This document shows, piece after piece, positions 45,396-53,394 of a stretch of DNA of 64,000 nucleotides. The position numbers were made by a program, and so were the translations under genes. The notes under the pieces are model-generated. The model was not told where the DNA came from and searched no databases. It saw nothing but the letters and a program-made list of their open reading frames with translations. The stretch spans positions 1 to 64,000 of the forward strand of contig JAAXCW010000006.1 in NCBI GenBank assembly GCA_013036095.1, given 5' to 3'. Every line of letters starts with the position of its first letter. The stretch's first letter is position 1. This DNA comes from Vulcanimicrobiota bacterium. GTDB lineage: Bacteria; Vulcanimicrobiota; Vulcanimicrobiia; Vulcanimicrobiales; Vulcanimicrobiaceae.

Positions 45396-45487
45396 AGCCT
45401 CGTCCCAACGGCCATTTTTCGTTTAACAAGCGGTCGAGTGGGTATTTAATCCGCGATACATTCCCAATCATTAAGGGGCTACACCAC

Positions 45488-45706
45488 ATGGCGATTCAAG
45501 ACCAAGCGCAAAATCCGGGCGGAGGCATGACTGTTCGGGAAGCAGGCAAGCGTGGCGGCGAACGCGTCAAGGCCAAGTACGGCACGGAGTTCTACGAGGC
45601 CATCGGACGTAAGGGCGGCGAGGCCACCAAAGAAAAGTACGGGCCTTCGTTCTATGAGGTCATAGGCCAAAAAGGCGGCCAAAAGCTCAAACGTAAGAGC
45701 TCGTAG
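45488..45706 (+). CDS. KGG-repeat stress protein, short copy
   Basis: 72 residues from ATG 45488. Units of about 20 residues of the form G-x2-FYE-x-IG-x-KGG-x5-K occur: GTEFYEAIGRKGGEATKEKY and GPSFYEVIGQKGGQKLKRK, after MTVREAGKRGGERVKAKY. This is the KGG/con-10 (general stress) repeat family: highly hydrophilic, disordered proteins linked to desiccation or stationary-phase survival. A longer paralogue follows 21 nt downstream. Confidence 0.85.
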   Translation: MAIQDQAQNPGGGMTVREAGKRGGERVKAKYGTEFYEAIGRKGGEATKEKYGPSFYEVIGQKGGQKLKRKSS

Positions 45707-45727
45707 CGGCTATTCTGCGGGCACCCC

Positions 45728-46039
45728 ATGGCAAAACCATACAAAGCCGACGACAAGCCGCCGGGTGGCGAGATGTCCGTGCGCGAGGCCGGCAAAAAGG
45801 GCGGTGACACCGTCCGCGACCGCTATGGCCCCGGGTTCTATGAGGCGATCGGGCGCAAGGGCGGACAAGCGACGCGTCAGCGCCACGGCGTAGAATTTTA
45901 CGAGTCGATCGGACAAAAAGGCGGCCGCGTCGTCAAGGAAAAATACGGCGCCGATTTTTACGAAGAGATCGGCCATAAGGGCGGCCAAAAAGTCAAACGG
46001 CTGATTGCCGAAGCGAAAAAGAAAAACAGCGGCGGTTAG
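45728..46039 (+). CDS. KGG-repeat stress protein, long copy
   Basis: 103 residues. Four KGG units: AGKKGGDTVRDRYGPGFYEA, IGRKGGQATRQRHGVEFYES, IGQKGGRVVKEKYGADFYEE and IGHKGGQKVKRLI. The spacing is 20 to 21 residues, so the gene contains roughly 63-bp imperfect direct repeats shared with the preceding gene. The pair probably arose by duplication and unequal repeat expansion. It ends 3 nt from the convergent lnt-lptC stop. Confidence 0.85.
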   Translation: MAKPYKADDKPPGGEMSVREAGKKGGDTVRDRYGPGFYEAIGRKGGQATRQRHGVEFYESIGQKGGRVVKEKYGADFYEEIGHKGGQKVKRLIAEAKKKNSGG

Positions 46040-46042
46040 AGA

Positions 46043-48118
46043 TTAGGGCGAGACGCCGCCGCTGACGCGGCCGAAATGAATCTCGCCGCTATTGAAGTTC
46101 ACGTTTATCGAAGAAACCCTTAACGTCTGGCCGCCGCTGCGCACGACGCTCGGATGCGGCAGCGTCAGTAGTTTTGGCGCATTGACCCATTGAATCAGAT
46201 CCGTATCGAACGAGCGCTCCGAGCTGGCATCTTGCGTTTGCGTAACGTGCACGTCGCCGGTCGCCGTGAAATCGAATGTCTGTGTATTTACCGAGACTTG
46301 TTCGGCGCGCACGCTGAGATAGGGTTTGCCGTTCTTATAAAGCACGCCGCGGCGTACGCCTTGGACGGTGGCGAGCACGCCGTCGGCGGACATCGCGGCA
46401 TGGTCGTATTCAAACATCCAGGACTTGGTGCTCATGCGGTTTCCCGTGACGCGTCCGCCGTGCAGCGTCAGGGGCGTCATGCCGTGCGGCGCCGCACCAG
46501 GTTCGTTGCCCGCCAAAACGACGCCGGCAATCACCCAAATCAGCGCGCCGGCACCTGCCAGCAACACGTAGAGTTTCCAGCGCGCCCCCGCTGGGCGCCA
46601 TTGCGGCGTACGCCACTGCACCGCGCGTACGCGCAATCTTCGGAGTGCGAGACTCCCCGCGTAAACAACCAGGAGCGCAATGCCCACCGGCGTCGGACCG
46701 ATACGCGCGAAGATCGAACCGGGCGGCGATCCGATCGTGCCCGCGACGATTGCCGGTTTATCCAAGGCCGTTCGCTGCGTCCACGATCCGTCGGGCGCGA
46801 TGATTCCGCTGATGCCGGTGGCGGCCGACTGTAAGACCCATTGGCCGTTTTCGATGGCGCGCATCTGCGCGATCTGCGCATGCTGATACGTGCCGGATGT
46901 TTCGCCGAACCATGCATCATCGGTCGATATCACTAAGAACTGCGCGCCGCGCGAGACCTGCGCGTGCACGAGGTCGGCAAAAGCCGATTCCCAACAAATC
47001 AGGGGAGCGAATGCGGCGCCGCCGGCCGGGATAATAGTGTCGTCTCCTCCGGCGGCAAAACGGCCGATGAGATCGGAGTCGGGCAGCCACTTGAGAAAGG
47101 GTTCGCCCGGAAAAGATTCGGTAAACGGAACAAGTTGGCGTTTTTCGTAGACTTGTGAGATATGTCCCGACGGTTGAAAGACGAAGAGCGCGTTGTAGTC
47201 TTTCGGGCCGCGCGCTTCCAAACTCCCGACCACAAGCGTCGCTTTCAAACTGTGCGCGAGCGCCGAAAAATCCGAGCGGACCATGGCCCGGACGCCGTTG
47301 GGATCGGAGGCGTTCAGATCGGTTGGAATCACGGTTTCAGGAAGCACGACGAGCTGCGCATGCAGCGGCTGCAGTTTGCGTGTCTGCGCGAGGTACGTGT
47401 TGACGGTCGGCCAAAACGCCTGCGGATTCCACTTGACCGTCTGCGCGATGTTGCCTTGCACCGCGCCCACGCGCAACAGCGGCACTCGAGAATTGTGGCG
47501 TGCCGGCCAGGCCGCAAAACAGAGCGCCCAGGCGGCGGCGACAACGACTACTGCGATCGCGAGCGGTCTCGGATCGCGGTTTGCCAGCGCCTGCGCGCCA
47601 TACGCTCCTAACAGCATGACGACGAACGTGATCCCGAACGCGCCGACGTATGGCGCAAATGCGATCAGCGGCGTAACGGTTTGCGAGTAGCCGATCTGCG
47701 CGAACGGCACGGCAAGCAATCCAATCGATCGGAGCCACTCGAAGACGGTGAACGCCGCCGCAGCTGCTGCGGGCGCCGCCCATGCCGGACCGAACCGTTC
47801 CGCGACGCGCGCGGCCACTGCGCTCGCAGCGAACGTCAGCCCCTCGACCAGCGCGGGAATCAGCACCACCGCGAATGCGAACGATCCGACGTAGCTGCCG
47901 ACCGTGTACGTGAACCAGGAAAAATTTATCGCGAAAAAGATCGTGCCGGCGAACCATCCGGCGAAGAAGGCGCGTTTCCAGGAGAGCCGTTGCCAAGCCC
48001 AGAACAGGCCCGCCGCCGCAAGCGGGGCGAGCCACGCCTGTCCCGCCTTGGGAAAAGCAAGTGCGAGCGCAACCGCGCTCAAAGCGGATACGATGACGGA
48101 GGTGAAGGTGCTACGCAA
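46043..48118 (-). CDS. lnt: Fusion of apolipoprotein N-acyltransferase with an LptC-like domain
   Basis: About 691 residues. The first 500 are Lnt: multiple N-terminal membrane helices, then the carbon-nitrogen hydrolase domain with Glu in VVLPETVIPTD, Lys in YEKRQLVPFTES and the Cys nucleophile in APLICWESAFADL. After the usual last helix comes an added membrane segment (LYVLLAGAGALIWVIAGVVL) and about 140 residues of beta-strands (SWMFEYDHAAMSADGVLATV, RAEQVSVNTQTFDFTATGDV, INVNFNSGEIHFGRVSGG) of the LptC/OstA periplasmic type. Lnt N-acylates lipoproteins; LptC links the LPS-export ABC to LptA. Start taken as TTG 48118; it overlaps a divergent gene's start. Confidence 0.85.
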   Translation of the reverse strand: MRSTFTSVIVSALSAVALALAFPKAGQAWLAPLAAAGLFWAWQRLSWKRAFFAGWFAGTIFFAINFSWFTYTVGSYVGSFAFAVVLIPALVEGLTFAASAVAARVAERFGPAWAAPAAAAAAFTVFEWLRSIGLLAVPFAQIGYSQTVTPLIAFAPYVGAFGITFVVMLLGAYGAQALANRDPRPLAIAVVVVAAAWALCFAAWPARHNSRVPLLRVGAVQGNIAQTVKWNPQAFWPTVNTYLAQTRKLQPLHAQLVVLPETVIPTDLNASDPNGVRAMVRSDFSALAHSLKATLVVGSLEARGPKDYNALFVFQPSGHISQVYEKRQLVPFTESFPGEPFLKWLPDSDLIGRFAAGGDDTIIPAGGAAFAPLICWESAFADLVHAQVSRGAQFLVISTDDAWFGETSGTYQHAQIAQMRAIENGQWVLQSAATGISGIIAPDGSWTQRTALDKPAIVAGTIGSPPGSIFARIGPTPVGIALLVVYAGSLALRRLRVRAVQWRTPQWRPAGARWKLYVLLAGAGALIWVIAGVVLAGNEPGAAPHGMTPLTLHGGRVTGNRMSTKSWMFEYDHAAMSADGVLATVQGVRRGVLYKNGKPYLSVRAEQVSVNTQTFDFTATGDVHVTQTQDASSERSFDTDLIQWVNAPKLLTLPHPSVVRSGGQTLRVSSINVNFNSGEIHFGRVSGGVSP

Positions 48119-48824
48119 AATGTTGTTCGTCGTCTCTGTCGCGGCGTTCACGTTTGCTGCCTGCGGCCGCCAAGTAACTCCCGACCGCGGTTCCGTGACG
48201 CCTTCGGGACTTCCGGCGGGTTTCATGCAGGTGAAGTTCACGACCGCTCAGGCTATGGATTTCACCAACGTCCAATACGTCATCATGTTCAACACGTCGA
48301 CGAGCGGCGGAATGCCCTATGCGAACGGCTACCAGACCAATTATGCGAACTATTGGTTTGCGATCGTCGTCGGCGGCAACGGCGTAACGTCTACGGTGCA
48401 AGTCGTGCAGTACGTGCGTCAGCCCGGGCTCGGCGGAGGCACGGTCGCTACGCCGCAGGTCATCCCGTATACTCCACAGCAGCTGCAATACAACCTCAAT
48501 AGCAACGGACAGAACACGCAGTTCACGGTGACGTTCGATCGCCGTCTCTTCAACGGCATTGTCGCGACGCCGAGTCCCGTGCCTGGCGCGAACCCGAAGC
48601 TCTGGTACGTCAACTGGTTTACGACGAACGCTTCCGGTCAACCGATCGACGCGCCCGGCATCGGCGGGCCGCAAGATCAGACGTTCACTTTTCCGACGTC
48701 GGGACTGCCCGGCATCGACATCTCGACATCGTTCGATCAGCAATTCAATGCGAACGCCGGCTGGCCGCAAGTCACGCCGCGCAGCGCGCAAATTGCCGGC
48801 GGCGAGGTCATCAACAGCCCGTAA
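48108..48824 (+). CDS. Lipoprotein of unknown function
   Basis: 238 residues from GTG 48108 (GGAGG at 48098-48102). Signal with lipobox FTFAAC. The mature part is Asn-, Gln- and Thr-rich and beta-predicted: AQAMDFTNVQYVIMFNTSTS, NYWFAIVVGGNGVTSTVQVV and KLWYVNWFTTNASGQP, without known motifs. Its 5' end overlaps the 5' end of the divergent lnt-lptC gene by about 11 bp, and it ends head-on to the metallothionein stop. The envelope setting suggests an outer-membrane or surface protein, not more. Confidence 0.65.
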   Translation: MLRKMLFVVSVAAFTFAACGRQVTPDRGSVTPSGLPAGFMQVKFTTAQAMDFTNVQYVIMFNTSTSGGMPYANGYQTNYANYWFAIVVGGNGVTSTVQVVQYVRQPGLGGGTVATPQVIPYTPQQLQYNLNSNGQNTQFTVTFDRRLFNGIVATPSPVPGANPKLWYVNWFTTNASGQPIDAPGIGGPQDQTFTFPTSGLPGIDISTSFDQQFNANAGWPQVTPRSAQIAGGEVINSP

Positions 48825-49009: not shown

Positions 49010-52000
49010 CTAGAAGTTGAAGCTGGTCGGAATGATCGAGCCGGTCGTGTTCAAGCCGAAGCTCGCGCCACGTGACGGGAAGGCGAGCAGGTTGAGTGTG
49101 AGATTCACTTGCTTGGCGGCTTGATTGTATTGGAGCTGGATTTGATAGCAGTCACCGATGATGCGGCTCCAATAGATGCTCTTGTTGATGATCCGGCCTT
49201 TGTTCTTCCAGTCGATGTCGCCGATAAACTGCAGCGTCGAACCGTTTCCGAACGGCGTCGAGAACTGCAGGTTTGTCGTGAAGAAACCGTTGCCCGGACC
49301 GGGAATGAACGATCCCGCGAGTGAGACGTACGAGCGGCGCGACGGATGCACCGCTAACTGATACTGCACCGGCTGAGCTGCGCGATTGAACGCGGTGCTG
49401 AAACTGAGCGTCAGGTTGTAAAAGTCGCTGTTGAAGAACCGCAAGATGTCGGCCGCGCTCTTATAGTTGAACGTCGGCTGCTGGTCGAGCGTGCTGAACG
49501 GCACAAATGCCGGCCCGTTGTAATTCGTTTCGTTGTAAGTGATCGCGTTGAGGGCGTGGCGTCCGATCGGCGTCGACATCGTCGCCGTCTGCTCGATGCT
49601 GGCTTTCATATCGCCCGTGCCGTACGCGAACTGGTGCACCTTCACCCCGGCGCTGATGTCGCTGCCTAAGACGTGGTAGAGCGCCGGACCAAAATTGAAA
49701 TACAAGTCTGCGCGTGAAGTCGAGAGCGGAGTCTGCGGCTCGTTGTAGTTTCCAATCGTGAACGAGGATGTGATCGGAATGATGAAGCGCTTCAGGAAAC
49801 TGTACGGATGAATTTCGAGTTCGGGCTCTTTGTTTAAGCCGTAAGGAATGCGAGCGAAAGCCTTGTCATACCTTAGCGTATAAGCCGCGAGTTTGTTGCT
49901 CCACTGCAAGAGATCGCTAAATGAACCCGCCGAATTACTGCTCAGGTTGTTGGGCCCATAATTCGTTCGCGCCGAACTGAGGTTGACGCTGAGGCTATTC
50001 TGCGTGACCGGGCCGAAAGCGCGTGATTCGGTGAACCCAAAATTGTCGGTTGCCGACAGCGTGGTAATGCTGGTGTGCGCGAACGTATAATTTTGCTGTG
50101 CGCGCACGCCGGTGTGGACAATGGACGCGCTGATGCTTTCGTTGGGCGGAATGTTTATGAGTGGACCGAAGTTGCTGGTGTAGGCGAAACCAAAGCGCGC
50201 ACGAAGCGCCTGCGAGAAATTCTCGGCATCTTGCGCATTGAGGTTGTTCTGGCCGTGAAAACGGTAAAAGTCAACTGAGGATTGGCGTCTCCCATTCTGT
50301 TTGGTGAGGAAAGCCGTGTAGCCTAGGCCGAAACCCTGTTTAGTGTAATATTCCAGCCGGTAGTAACCGTAAAAATATTGGTCGCTCCCGAATCCGACCT
50401 TTGCCTTGATGTAAAATCCCTGATATGAATTGTATCCGACTTCGGGAAAAAACGACGGACGCTGGCGTTCGTCTTGGATGCTGCGCAGCGGAATGATCAG
50501 TTTGGGCAGATAGAAAACGGCGGCGGCCCCCAGGAACAGCACGGCTTTACTGATGACCATCCGGTCGCCGGGATAGATGTCGATGGTACGTCCGGTGATG
50601 TGGTATCCCGCGCGCGGACGTTCGCACGTCGTGACGTTCGCGTAGTCGCCGTGCGAGACGCCGTGTTCGTCGGCCTTCAAATCTTTCGCGCTGAAATAGA
50701 CGAGCCCGCGTTCGACGCCTTCCGAACTTTCGCCGCGGCCGTTAATCAACTCGGCGCGCTGCGCGACCGTGTCGAACAAGATCTCATCTCCGCGCAAGAT
50801 CGATGTATTCGTATTGTTGGCGATATACGGGTTGCCGCTGATCGTGACCGTTTTGAATCCGTCATAGTGCGCGCGATCGCCGACGAGCACTTCGTCTTGA
50901 TAAAAGATGTGCACGTTGCCGATCGCGTCACCGGGGGCGCCCGGTTTGTTGAAGTTCCCGACGAACCTGTCGGCCATCACTGCCATGAAGCCCGGGCGCA
51001 GGGTCGGGGCGACGATCGGCGCCGGTGTCGCGGAAGGCGTCGGCGAGCCGTTGGGCACGATCGAAGGCGGCGCGGAGCCGCGAATGAGGAAGACCGGTCC
51101 CGCGCTTGCTTTCGCACTCGGCACTGGCGTGGGGATCGGCGGCGGCGTCACTGCGCTCCCGCTTGGAATCGGCGTGGTGTAGAGGTGGCCGGGCGCTAAC
51201 GGCGCGTTCGGAACGGGAGCGCTGGAGCTCGGTGACGGCGCGGGCGTCGGCGTGACCTGCGCCACCAAATCGCTCGAGCGCAAAGCGCGCGACGCGCACG
51301 TGTTTGCATTGAGCAGTCCAAAGATCGCTTCCGATGACATCACGTTGCCGGCAGGCGGCGGCGCGGGCGAAGGTGCGGGAGCCGGCAGGGGAGAGGGTGT
51401 GAGCGACGGGAGCGGCGTGAGCAAAGGATGCGGCGCCGGCGCACGCGGCGCCGGAAGAATATGCGGCTGGGGCGGCGCGATCGCCGCAATCTTGCGCACG
51501 GAAGGCTTGCGCCCGGCGAGCGGTTTGGGCGACGTCGCCAGGAGCGGCTTTGCGCGTGCGATCGCAATTTTTGGGGGTGCGGCAGTTACGCGCACGACCG
51601 GCGCGGGCGTTACGTGTATGATCGGCGTTGGTGAAGGTGTTGCGGCGGGCGCCGATATCTCGGGCAGCGGCGTCGCCAACGCGATTTCGTCTGAACGCTG
51701 CACGTTTTGCATGCTGGCGCCGAGCCATCGCGCACCGCGTGTATCGGTTCGCAAGAGATTTGCGCCCTGCAAGTTCGCGTCGCGGAAATCGGCGAGCCGA
51801 AGGTTTGCCGTTTCCAGATTCGCGCCGGCGAGATCGGCGTGCCGCAAATGAGCGCGGTAAAAATTCGCGCCATAGAATAGCGCGCTTTGCAGGTTTGCCT
51901 GTTCCAAGCTCGCGCCTTGAAAGATTGCGTCTTGCGAGTCGGCCGACTGCAGATTGGCGCGCACCAGGATCGCGTTTTGGAGGATCGCGCTTTGTAAATG

Positions 52001-52231
52001 CGCGCCTTGCAAATTCGCTCCCGTGAGGTTCGCGCGCGTGAGGTTTGCGCCGCTCAAGTCGGCGCCTTGCAGATCCGCGTTGCGCAGGTCCGCGTTGCGG
52101 AAGTCGTGCTTCTTCAGGTTCGCGTTTTGAAAGTTGACGTCGCGCGCCGGCGCCGCAAGAGGAAAAAATCCTGCGACAAACGCGGCCAAGCAGATCGTTG
52201 CGCGAACGGAGCGCTTTTGCAAACCGAACAC
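49010..52231 (-). CDS. lptD: LptD/OstA-like outer-membrane protein with N-terminal pentapeptide repeats
   Basis: 1073 residues from GTG 52231 (AGGGCG upstream, 8 nt after the lptG stop). Signal peptide (ICLAAFVAGFFPLAAPA). Residues about 31-178 are some 29 pentapeptide repeats of the A(D/N)LxX type (ADLRNADLQGADLSGANLTR), predicting a quadrilateral beta-helix. A 230-residue Pro/Ala/Ser linker follows. Then comes an OstA-like domain from about 410 (HIFYQDEVLVGDRAHYDGFK) with TTCERPRAGYHITGRTIDIY, and a C-terminal barrel ending in aromatic-rich strands (TGSIIPTSFNF). LptD inserts LPS in the outer leaflet. The pentapeptide part is not known from standard LptD. Confidence 0.85.
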   Translation of the reverse strand: MFGLQKRSVRATICLAAFVAGFFPLAAPARDVNFQNANLKKHDFRNADLRNADLQGADLSGANLTRANLTGANLQGAHLQSAILQNAILVRANLQSADSQDAIFQGASLEQANLQSALFYGANFYRAHLRHADLAGANLETANLRLADFRDANLQGANLLRTDTRGARWLGASMQNVQRSDEIALATPLPEISAPAATPSPTPIIHVTPAPVVRVTAAPPKIAIARAKPLLATSPKPLAGRKPSVRKIAAIAPPQPHILPAPRAPAPHPLLTPLPSLTPSPLPAPAPSPAPPPAGNVMSSEAIFGLLNANTCASRALRSSDLVAQVTPTPAPSPSSSAPVPNAPLAPGHLYTTPIPSGSAVTPPPIPTPVPSAKASAGPVFLIRGSAPPSIVPNGSPTPSATPAPIVAPTLRPGFMAVMADRFVGNFNKPGAPGDAIGNVHIFYQDEVLVGDRAHYDGFKTVTISGNPYIANNTNTSILRGDEILFDTVAQRAELINGRGESSEGVERGLVYFSAKDLKADEHGVSHGDYANVTTCERPRAGYHITGRTIDIYPGDRMVISKAVLFLGAAAVFYLPKLIIPLRSIQDERQRPSFFPEVGYNSYQGFYIKAKVGFGSDQYFYGYYRLEYYTKQGFGLGYTAFLTKQNGRRQSSVDFYRFHGQNNLNAQDAENFSQALRARFGFAYTSNFGPLINIPPNESISASIVHTGVRAQQNYTFAHTSITTLSATDNFGFTESRAFGPVTQNSLSVNLSSARTNYGPNNLSSNSAGSFSDLLQWSNKLAAYTLRYDKAFARIPYGLNKEPELEIHPYSFLKRFIIPITSSFTIGNYNEPQTPLSTSRADLYFNFGPALYHVLGSDISAGVKVHQFAYGTGDMKASIEQTATMSTPIGRHALNAITYNETNYNGPAFVPFSTLDQQPTFNYKSAADILRFFNSDFYNLTLSFSTAFNRAAQPVQYQLAVHPSRRSYVSLAGSFIPGPGNGFFTTNLQFSTPFGNGSTLQFIGDIDWKNKGRIINKSIYWSRIIGDCYQIQLQYNQAAKQVNLTLNLLAFPSRGASFGLNTTGSIIPTSFNF

Positions 52232-52239
52232 GGAGCGCC

Positions 52240-53394
52240 CTAGTGTTCTTCGTACCAAAGCAACGCCAAGCCGCCCAGGCCGAAAACCAGGTTCGGAACC
52301 CAAGAGACGAGGTACGGGTTCACGCGTCCCGTGCTGCCGAACGCGGCCGCCGCTTCGGAGAGAATGAAATAGATGAAGAACGCGATGATCGACATTGCGA
52401 TGCCCATCATGCGCCCCTTCTTGCCGAACATGACGGCGAGCGGCAGCGCGAGCAGAACGGCCACCAGCGCCGAGAATGGAAACGCGAGCTTATCTGCGAG
52501 GTTGACTTGCAGATTCCCAAGCGCTTCGCCGCCCACGCCCTGCGCTTGCAATGCGCTCACCTGGTGGGAGAGCTGTTTGGAATCCATCGTCCACGCATCG
52601 CTGCTCGCACTGCTCAGGAACTGTGCAGCGTTCTCTCCCAGCGGCAGGCCGATGCTGGCTTCAGACTTGTCCACTTGCGACGTCATGTAACCTTGGCCGT
52701 TGTAAAATGTGATCACGACGCCGTTCAGGACGAGGGTTGGTCCGACGACGTGCGCGGTCTTGGCCTGAATCGTTTCGTTCCAGTAACCATTGCGCCCGGG
52801 TTTGAATATCTGCACGCCGACCATGGTACGGCCGTCAGCGAGCACGTGGTCGATGAAGAACTCGTTGTTGGTATCGGGATCCTTGCGGAAAAACTGCGAC
52901 TCGACCGGCAGCGCTCCGGTATGATAGATGATCTGATAGAACGTCCGCGTCGAGATTTCGACGGACTTAGGCGCGACGAATTCGTTCATCATCCATGAGA
53001 ACAGGAAGACGACGAATCCAAAAAGCAGCGGCGTAAGGCAGAGGCGCCACAGCGATGTGCCGGACGTGCGAATCGCGTTGATTTCGTTGTCGGCCATCAA
53101 CCGTCCGATGCCCAGCAGTGTCGCGAAAAGGGCCGCGAACGGAAAGGCCATCGGGATCGACTGCGGGATGCGGAACACGACGAACCGCAAGACGAGAAAG
53201 AACGGCGCGCCGTGCCCGATGACCTGATTTGCAGCCAAGAAGAAAATGTTGAAGCCCCAAAATAAAAAGAACGCCAGGAACGCGAAGACGAACGGCCCGA
53301 TGAACTCGCGCAAAATGTAAGCGTCGAGCAGCGGCAAGCGTAAGGAGCGGAGCAGGTTGATTGGCGCGGGGCGTGCTCCGGAAATGGAGGCCAT
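52240..53394 (-). CDS. lptG: LPS export permease LptG/LptF (YjgP/YjgQ family)
   Basis: 384 residues. Two N-terminal helix blocks (FVFAFLAFFLFWGFNIFFL, PMAFPFAALFATLLGIGRL) with the DNEINAIRTSG cytoplasmic loop typical of the family, a middle periplasmic jellyroll of about 150 residues, and the C-terminal helices (FSALVAVLLALPLAVMFG, GIAMSIIAFFIYFILSEA). It forms the channel of the LPS extractor with LptB. Only one LptF/G-type gene is visible. It lies 8 nt before the lptD-like gene and 15 nt after the transglycosylase gene. Confidence 0.92.
   Translation of the reverse strand: MASISGARPAPINLLRSLRLPLLDAYILREFIGPFVFAFLAFFLFWGFNIFFLAANQVIGHGAPFFLVLRFVVFRIPQSIPMAFPFAALFATLLGIGRLMADNEINAIRTSGTSLWRLCLTPLLFGFVVFLFSWMMNEFVAPKSVEISTRTFYQIIYHTGALPVESQFFRKDPDTNNEFFIDHVLADGRTMVGVQIFKPGRNGYWNETIQAKTAHVVGPTLVLNGVVITFYNGQGYMTSQVDKSEASIGLPLGENAAQFLSSASSDAWTMDSKQLSHQVSALQAQGVGGEALGNLQVNLADKLAFPFSALVAVLLALPLAVMFGKKGRMMGIAMSIIAFFIYFILSEAAAAFGSTGRVNPYLVSWVPNLVFGLGGLALLWYEEH

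Follow-up and report, generated by a model that had tools for sequence, protein, structure and literature searches.

The 64,000-nucleotide stretch of DNA analyzed here (the window) carries on its minus strand an lptD gene with an N-terminal pentapeptide-repeat domain (49010–52231), which runs without internal stop from a GTG at 52231 to a stop codon at 49010–49012 and encodes 1073 amino acids. The open reading frame and its translation are matched by full-length orthologues, 75–86% identical, in four other genomes, while a sixth orthologue is cut by a scaffold gap. A first-pass annotation of this DNA had described a signal peptide, about 29 pentapeptides, a linker, an OstA-like domain and a barrel in a single frame, and our analysis confirms this order: signal peptide, pentapeptide repeats, a Pro/Ala/Ser-rich stretch, an OstA-like jellyroll and a β-barrel.

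All parts of the protein are encoded on the minus strand. The signal peptide (residues 1–29; 52145–52231) is recognized by its basic N-terminus, hydrophobic core and A-P-A-R/D sequence, with a hydrophobic helix at residues 5–20 in the model; residue 9 provides an alternative GTG start. It is followed by the pentapeptide-repeat domain of about 29–30 repeats (residues 31–179; 51695–52141). The Pro/Ala/Ser-rich stretch (residues 180–407), previously read as one linker of 230 residues, does have that composition (25% Pro, 17% Ala and 11% Ser over residues 181–400), but it consists of two linkers flanking a conserved cysteine segment. Linker 1 (residues 180–300; 51332–51694) is Pro/Ala-rich, bears a net charge of +7 and is present in the alignment only in fused orthologues; the ancestral mature N-terminus of LptD (FGLLNANTCAS, with Cys312) and linker 2 come next (residues 301–407; 51011–51331). 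The OstA/LptD_N jellyroll with the C536 region (residues 408–545; 50597–51010) and the LptD β-barrel with Cys1028 (residues 546–1073; 49013–50596) complete the protein.

Directly upstream, separated by 8 nt, lies an lptF/lptG-type permease gene (52240–53394, minus strand; Pfam LptF_LptG E=2.6e-69), and downstream lies lnt (46043–48241, minus strand; TIGR00546 E=1.9e-83). The order lptF/G–lptD–lnt is common to fused and unfused genomes, with lptF/G directly upstream in all loci checked, and each of the seven genomes of the genus has LpxC, so that both the gene neighborhood and the lipid A context are those of an LptD. In Vulcanimicrobium alpinus, a cultured member of the phylum, the wall is of the Gram-negative kind and its outer membrane is covered with LPS (PMC9758169). 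Lnt itself seems to carry an LptC-like OstA domain fused to its C-terminus, beside lptD (TIGR04409 LptC_YrbK E=1.7e-5, under the cut-off), and a frame close to lptD in one genome of the genus (G025) scores above the Pfam LptC cut-off. On the plus strand, positions 45400–46039 hold two small tandem genes with repeated GxxFYExIGxKGG motifs (KGG stress-type repeats).

Repeat domain: Thirty pentapeptide blocks in a row make up residues 32–181; 16 of these fit A(D/N)(L/F) strictly, and the pattern breaks at residues 97–101 (ADSQD) and 162–166 (TDTRG). Among 2000 shuffles, the number of strict motifs averaged 1.1 and never exceeded 5, and the longest unbroken loose run, 15 blocks in the protein, never exceeded 6. 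The domain matches Pfam Pentapeptide (PF00805) at E=1.1e-33 and solved pentapeptide proteins in the PDB at up to E=3e-30. In the full-length AlphaFold model it is a β-helix of about 7.3 coils and about 36 Å, with pLDDT mostly 65–79 and two weaker spots, and a Foldseek search with the modeled repeat returned pentapeptide structures (E=1e-11). Profile, structure, shuffle and model evidence therefore agree on tandem A(D/N)LxX repeats folded as a quadrilateral β-helix. No OstA jellyroll was found within this domain; residues 31–179 match only pentapeptide families in Pfam and are modeled as a pentapeptide helix.

C-terminal domain: The C-terminal two thirds of the protein are a real but very divergent LptD, an identity on which four independent lines of evidence converge. 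The mature protein contains only three cysteines, C312, C536 and C1028, conserved in 15 of 16, 23 of 23 and 23 of 23 relatives covering each position. In position and context they correspond to E. coli C31, C173 and C724/C725 (NVTTC to SFTSC and GDCYQIQLQY to SSCCYAIRVGY), so that the predicted disulfide cysteines lie close to the two termini and after the jellyroll. In the barrel part, the motif LGAAAVFYLPKLIIPLR aligns with E. coli VGPVPIFYSPYLQLPV. A distant homologue from the same phylum (L128), found with the family profile (A2) at E=6e-25, in turn aligns over 290 residues with N. gonorrhoeae LptD (7omm; E=4e-8). Structural comparison gives a third line: the ten best Foldseek matches of the model of residues 403–1073 are all LptD (E from 2e-8 to 4e-6), and VIA-align places the first 110 residues of this model on LptA and LptC with Z about 10, the LptA/LptC-type jellyroll at residues ~409–513 scoring 10.6 against LptA 2r1a_C and 10.2 against LptC 4b54. 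The cysteines, the bridging homologue, the structural matches and the gene order together identify this part as LptD, in agreement with the first-pass annotation. At class level, a further homologue (L138) exceeds the Pfam LptD_N cut-off.

Direct comparisons reflect the divergence of the protein. The best direct family match is NCBIfam LptD (E=0.0024, 16 bits). Pfam LptD (PF04453) has no match in the window's own genome, which we did not treat as a defining failure, as this family matches in only 2 of 14 control genomes and covers few lineages. A PDB profile search with A2 gave no match, hhalign against E. coli LptD alone gave a probability of 0.65%, and a shuffle-controlled HMM comparison with E. 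coli LptD did not rise above the shuffles. In both AlphaFold models the barrel is of poor quality (mean pLDDT 37 for the full-length protein and 41 for residues 403–1073), probably because only 8–9 relatives were aligned, yet a large C-terminal LptD-type outer-membrane barrel is recognizable despite this low confidence. Set beside known LptD structures (4q35, 5iv9, 7omm, 9ia5), the window protein shares the OstA jellyroll, the large C-terminal barrel, the lptF/G neighbor, the N-terminal, middle and C-terminal cysteines, and the FYLP..PLR motif after the middle cysteine. It differs in its extra pentapeptide domain, its long Pro-rich linkers, its divergence beyond the reach of the Pfam LptD family, and a single C-terminal cysteine in place of the Cys-Cys pair.

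The fusion occurs in six of the seven genomes of one genus of Candidatus Eremiobacterota, which are soil bacteria; the sister species G049 has an unfused gene. The frame is open throughout in five of the six (G000, the window's own genome, and G058, G025, G062 and G061), and in the sixth, G063, it is interrupted by a run of N at a scaffold gap. All 61 sampled genomes of the family match the LptD protein, weakly in G032, which is 63% complete, and the match extends over the repeat only in members of the genus; long LptD frames elsewhere in the family (L134–L137, L141) contain no hidden repeat. Outside the genus, then, no sampled LptD of the family has the repeat, which was regarded from the outset as unusual for LptD. 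Although every genome involved is a draft assembly, there is next to no chance that an assembly error or frameshift joined two genes, leaving the repeat on a separate polypeptide, since identical junctions occur in independent assemblies (the Candidatus Eremiobacterota MAGs bin6B, palsa_1493, palsa_1523, fen_1528 and H17), the frame is open in all of them, codon-level selection spans the join, and the split in G063 is a run of N; with the fusion recurring in six genomes of the genus, this explanation was rejected.

Unfused orthologues, that of G049 included, pass straight from the signal peptide to the ‘ALxLLNxQSCA’ segment that holds the first cysteine, which implies that the repeat and a new linker of 120 residues were inserted exactly between the two. 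A tree built from the C-terminal region, with unfused proteins as outgroups, unites all six fusions in a single clade (100/100) and makes G049 their sister, so that one gain is the simplest history. At the level of sequence, these comparisons show that the repeat was inserted a single time, after the signal peptide and ahead of the first LptD cysteine, in the common ancestor of the six fused genomes; taken together with the identity as LptD, we consider this history very probable. What is new is the N-terminal module, LptD itself being already known, and our literature search turned up no earlier account of an LptD bearing a pentapeptide repeat.

E. coli requires LptD for viability, nearly all diderms possess it and the protein is delicate to assemble, which makes a selected domain ahead of the first disulfide cysteine unexpected. 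Between orthologues, dN/dS is 0.08–0.15 for the repeat, mostly 0.03–0.15 for the OstA/barrel part and 0.21–0.39 for linker 1; over six orthologues the repeat varies in length by at most one codon, while linker 1 has several indels. Judged from these codon comparisons, purifying selection on the repeat is about as strong as that on the barrel, while the linker drifts. Such selection could merely preserve a foldable domain on an essential protein.

The same module heads other envelope proteins. A second OstA-like barrel protein of the window's own genome, C5 (L031:2599-5202), resembles the window LptD in its layout of signal peptide, pentapeptides and linker, in its OstA-like start and in its occurrence with the module in the same six genomes; the module is missing from its orthologue in G049 and from every other family orthologue whose N-terminus was inspected. 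It differs from LptD in having no cysteine column common to at least three family members and only a weak LptD profile match, restricted to the OstA start. The modules of LptD and C5 can be aligned over most of their length with no gap and are 50–61% identical in register, compared with at most 44–51% at any other repeat offset; the two therefore have a common ancestry that goes further than the repeat consensus. The C5 module of G025 and the linker after it look nearer to the LptD type, as if partly re-copied, which suggests that the two genes recombined there. A third carrier (L032) combines pentapeptides with a Cu-amine-oxidase-like stalk domain and a barrel-like C-terminus; relatives of this stalk protein elsewhere are mostly frames of 420–530 aa, and the copies in the genus reach 730–860. 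By alignment, then, these genomes encode two further barrel-type envelope proteins fronted by homologous modules.

The analysis also brought up several related genes. The C5 orthologues across the family (L058–L087) form a cysteine-poor, OstA-like barrel protein present in nearly all family genomes, a possible paralogue within the LptD superfamily. Locus G000:C2 encodes an almost pure secreted pentapeptide protein of 406 aa (L032:2816-4036), adjoined by the pentapeptide, copper-amine-oxidase-N-like stalk and barrel-like protein (L032:3801-6170), whose family has many copies per genome. At G000:C10, a BlaR1-type M56 peptidase sensor whose C-terminus is a pentapeptide-repeat domain (L033:2731-4815, minus strand) adjoins another secreted pentapeptide protein.

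Our preferred explanation, to which we assign a probability of roughly 0.55, is an LptD carrying a once-inserted module that would act as a tethered periplasmic docking domain. After export, the barrel and jellyroll would fold and act as an ordinary LptD, the LPS translocon, and Cys312 would form the usual N-terminal disulfide, which would fix the beginning of the ancestral portion on the periplasmic side. The repeat would be a rigid periplasmic rod, about 36 Å in length, held by a flexible tether of some 120 residues for which we estimate about 70–100 Å rms. There it may dock to, or tether, a partner common to all carriers, with peptidoglycan or a periplasmic protein as candidates, probably through a conserved face lined with Asn and Gln, and it would neither carry LPS nor replace LptA. 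That the same rod also heads two or more further outer-membrane proteins points to a common docking element rather than to a substitute for the LPS bridge. The docking function, scored by itself, is tentative and falls a little short of even odds.

The outward residues of the helix offer a candidate surface for such docking. On one face 18 of 24 are invariant, compared with 8–12 of 21–22 on the other three faces; an Asn/Asp-x-Gln ladder runs along this face, on which the window LptD and C5 modules are also most alike, although in the G061 comparisons face 3 was about equal to face 0. The pattern is suggestive of a binding surface, in an after-the-fact analysis of few sequences in which the pentapeptide consensus itself favors Asn/Asp at one position.

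The module may instead be a neutral passenger, a mobile secreted-protein N-terminus recombined onto several genes, harmless and hard to lose from an essential one. The same module does head several unrelated proteins, and N-termini do recombine, as the C5 module of G025, seemingly part re-copied from an LptD-type module, illustrates; but a repeat length constant to one codon and a dN/dS of 0.08–0.15, next to a linker with indels and 0.21–0.39, make this reading rather unlikely.

We give a similarly low chance to a role like that of YjbI/PerA in Caulobacter crescentus, in which the repeat would embed in or contact the outer membrane or LPS layer and sense or adjust the state of the envelope while fixed to the translocon. 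YjbI is a secreted pentapeptide protein that simulation and thiol probing place in the LPS layer, and it controls outer-membrane composition (PMC12864828). The window repeat is likewise an exported quadrilateral β-helix linked to the outer membrane, and its linker 1 is basic (+7). However, it precedes the periplasmic OstA domain and so should stay periplasmic, whereas YjbI is a free-standing protein of 183 residues in the LPS layer; moreover, the two flanking cysteine pairs and free charged tail of YjbI are absent, as residues 31–300 contain no cysteine and the C-terminus of the helix enters the linker. Our search for pentapeptide-barrel fusions in the literature found nothing beyond YjbI. DotG/IcmE of type IVB secretion (7muc; match E=5e-7) is also an envelope-spanning machine component with pentapeptide-like repeats, but it belongs to an unrelated machine and not to an LPS transporter.

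The first-pass annotation had proposed that the repeat acts as a periplasmic spacer or replaces part of the LptA bridge, no lptA having been seen. The repeat is indeed a rigid β-solenoid on the periplasmic side of LptD, but extension or replacement of the bridge is very improbable, and we rejected it on gene content and fold. Two tandem lptA-like genes lie elsewhere in the window's own genome (G000:C7, L039), which leaves LptA replacement unsupported, and the same pair is found in the unfused G049; LptC-family matches occur in every member of the genus, the OstA jellyroll belonging to LptD itself is intact, other barrel proteins carry homologous modules, and pentapeptide helices have a packed core with no open lipid groove. 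The spacer idea survives loosely, as a rigid domain on a flexible tether.

A natural LptD fusion gives physical form to the link, known from YjbI, between secreted pentapeptide proteins and outer-membrane composition, and sister genomes with and without the fusion, their Lpt genes otherwise similar, provide a clean natural comparison. Beyond the tethered docking domain on LptD, a broader and more speculative possibility, which we hold to be on the unlikely side, is that a mobile secreted pentapeptide module serves as a genus-wide periplasmic ‘plug’, having moved by recombination to the LPS translocon and further barrel proteins so that all fit one common anchor. If this were true, the sites of LPS insertion in these bacteria would be physically tied to other envelope machinery.
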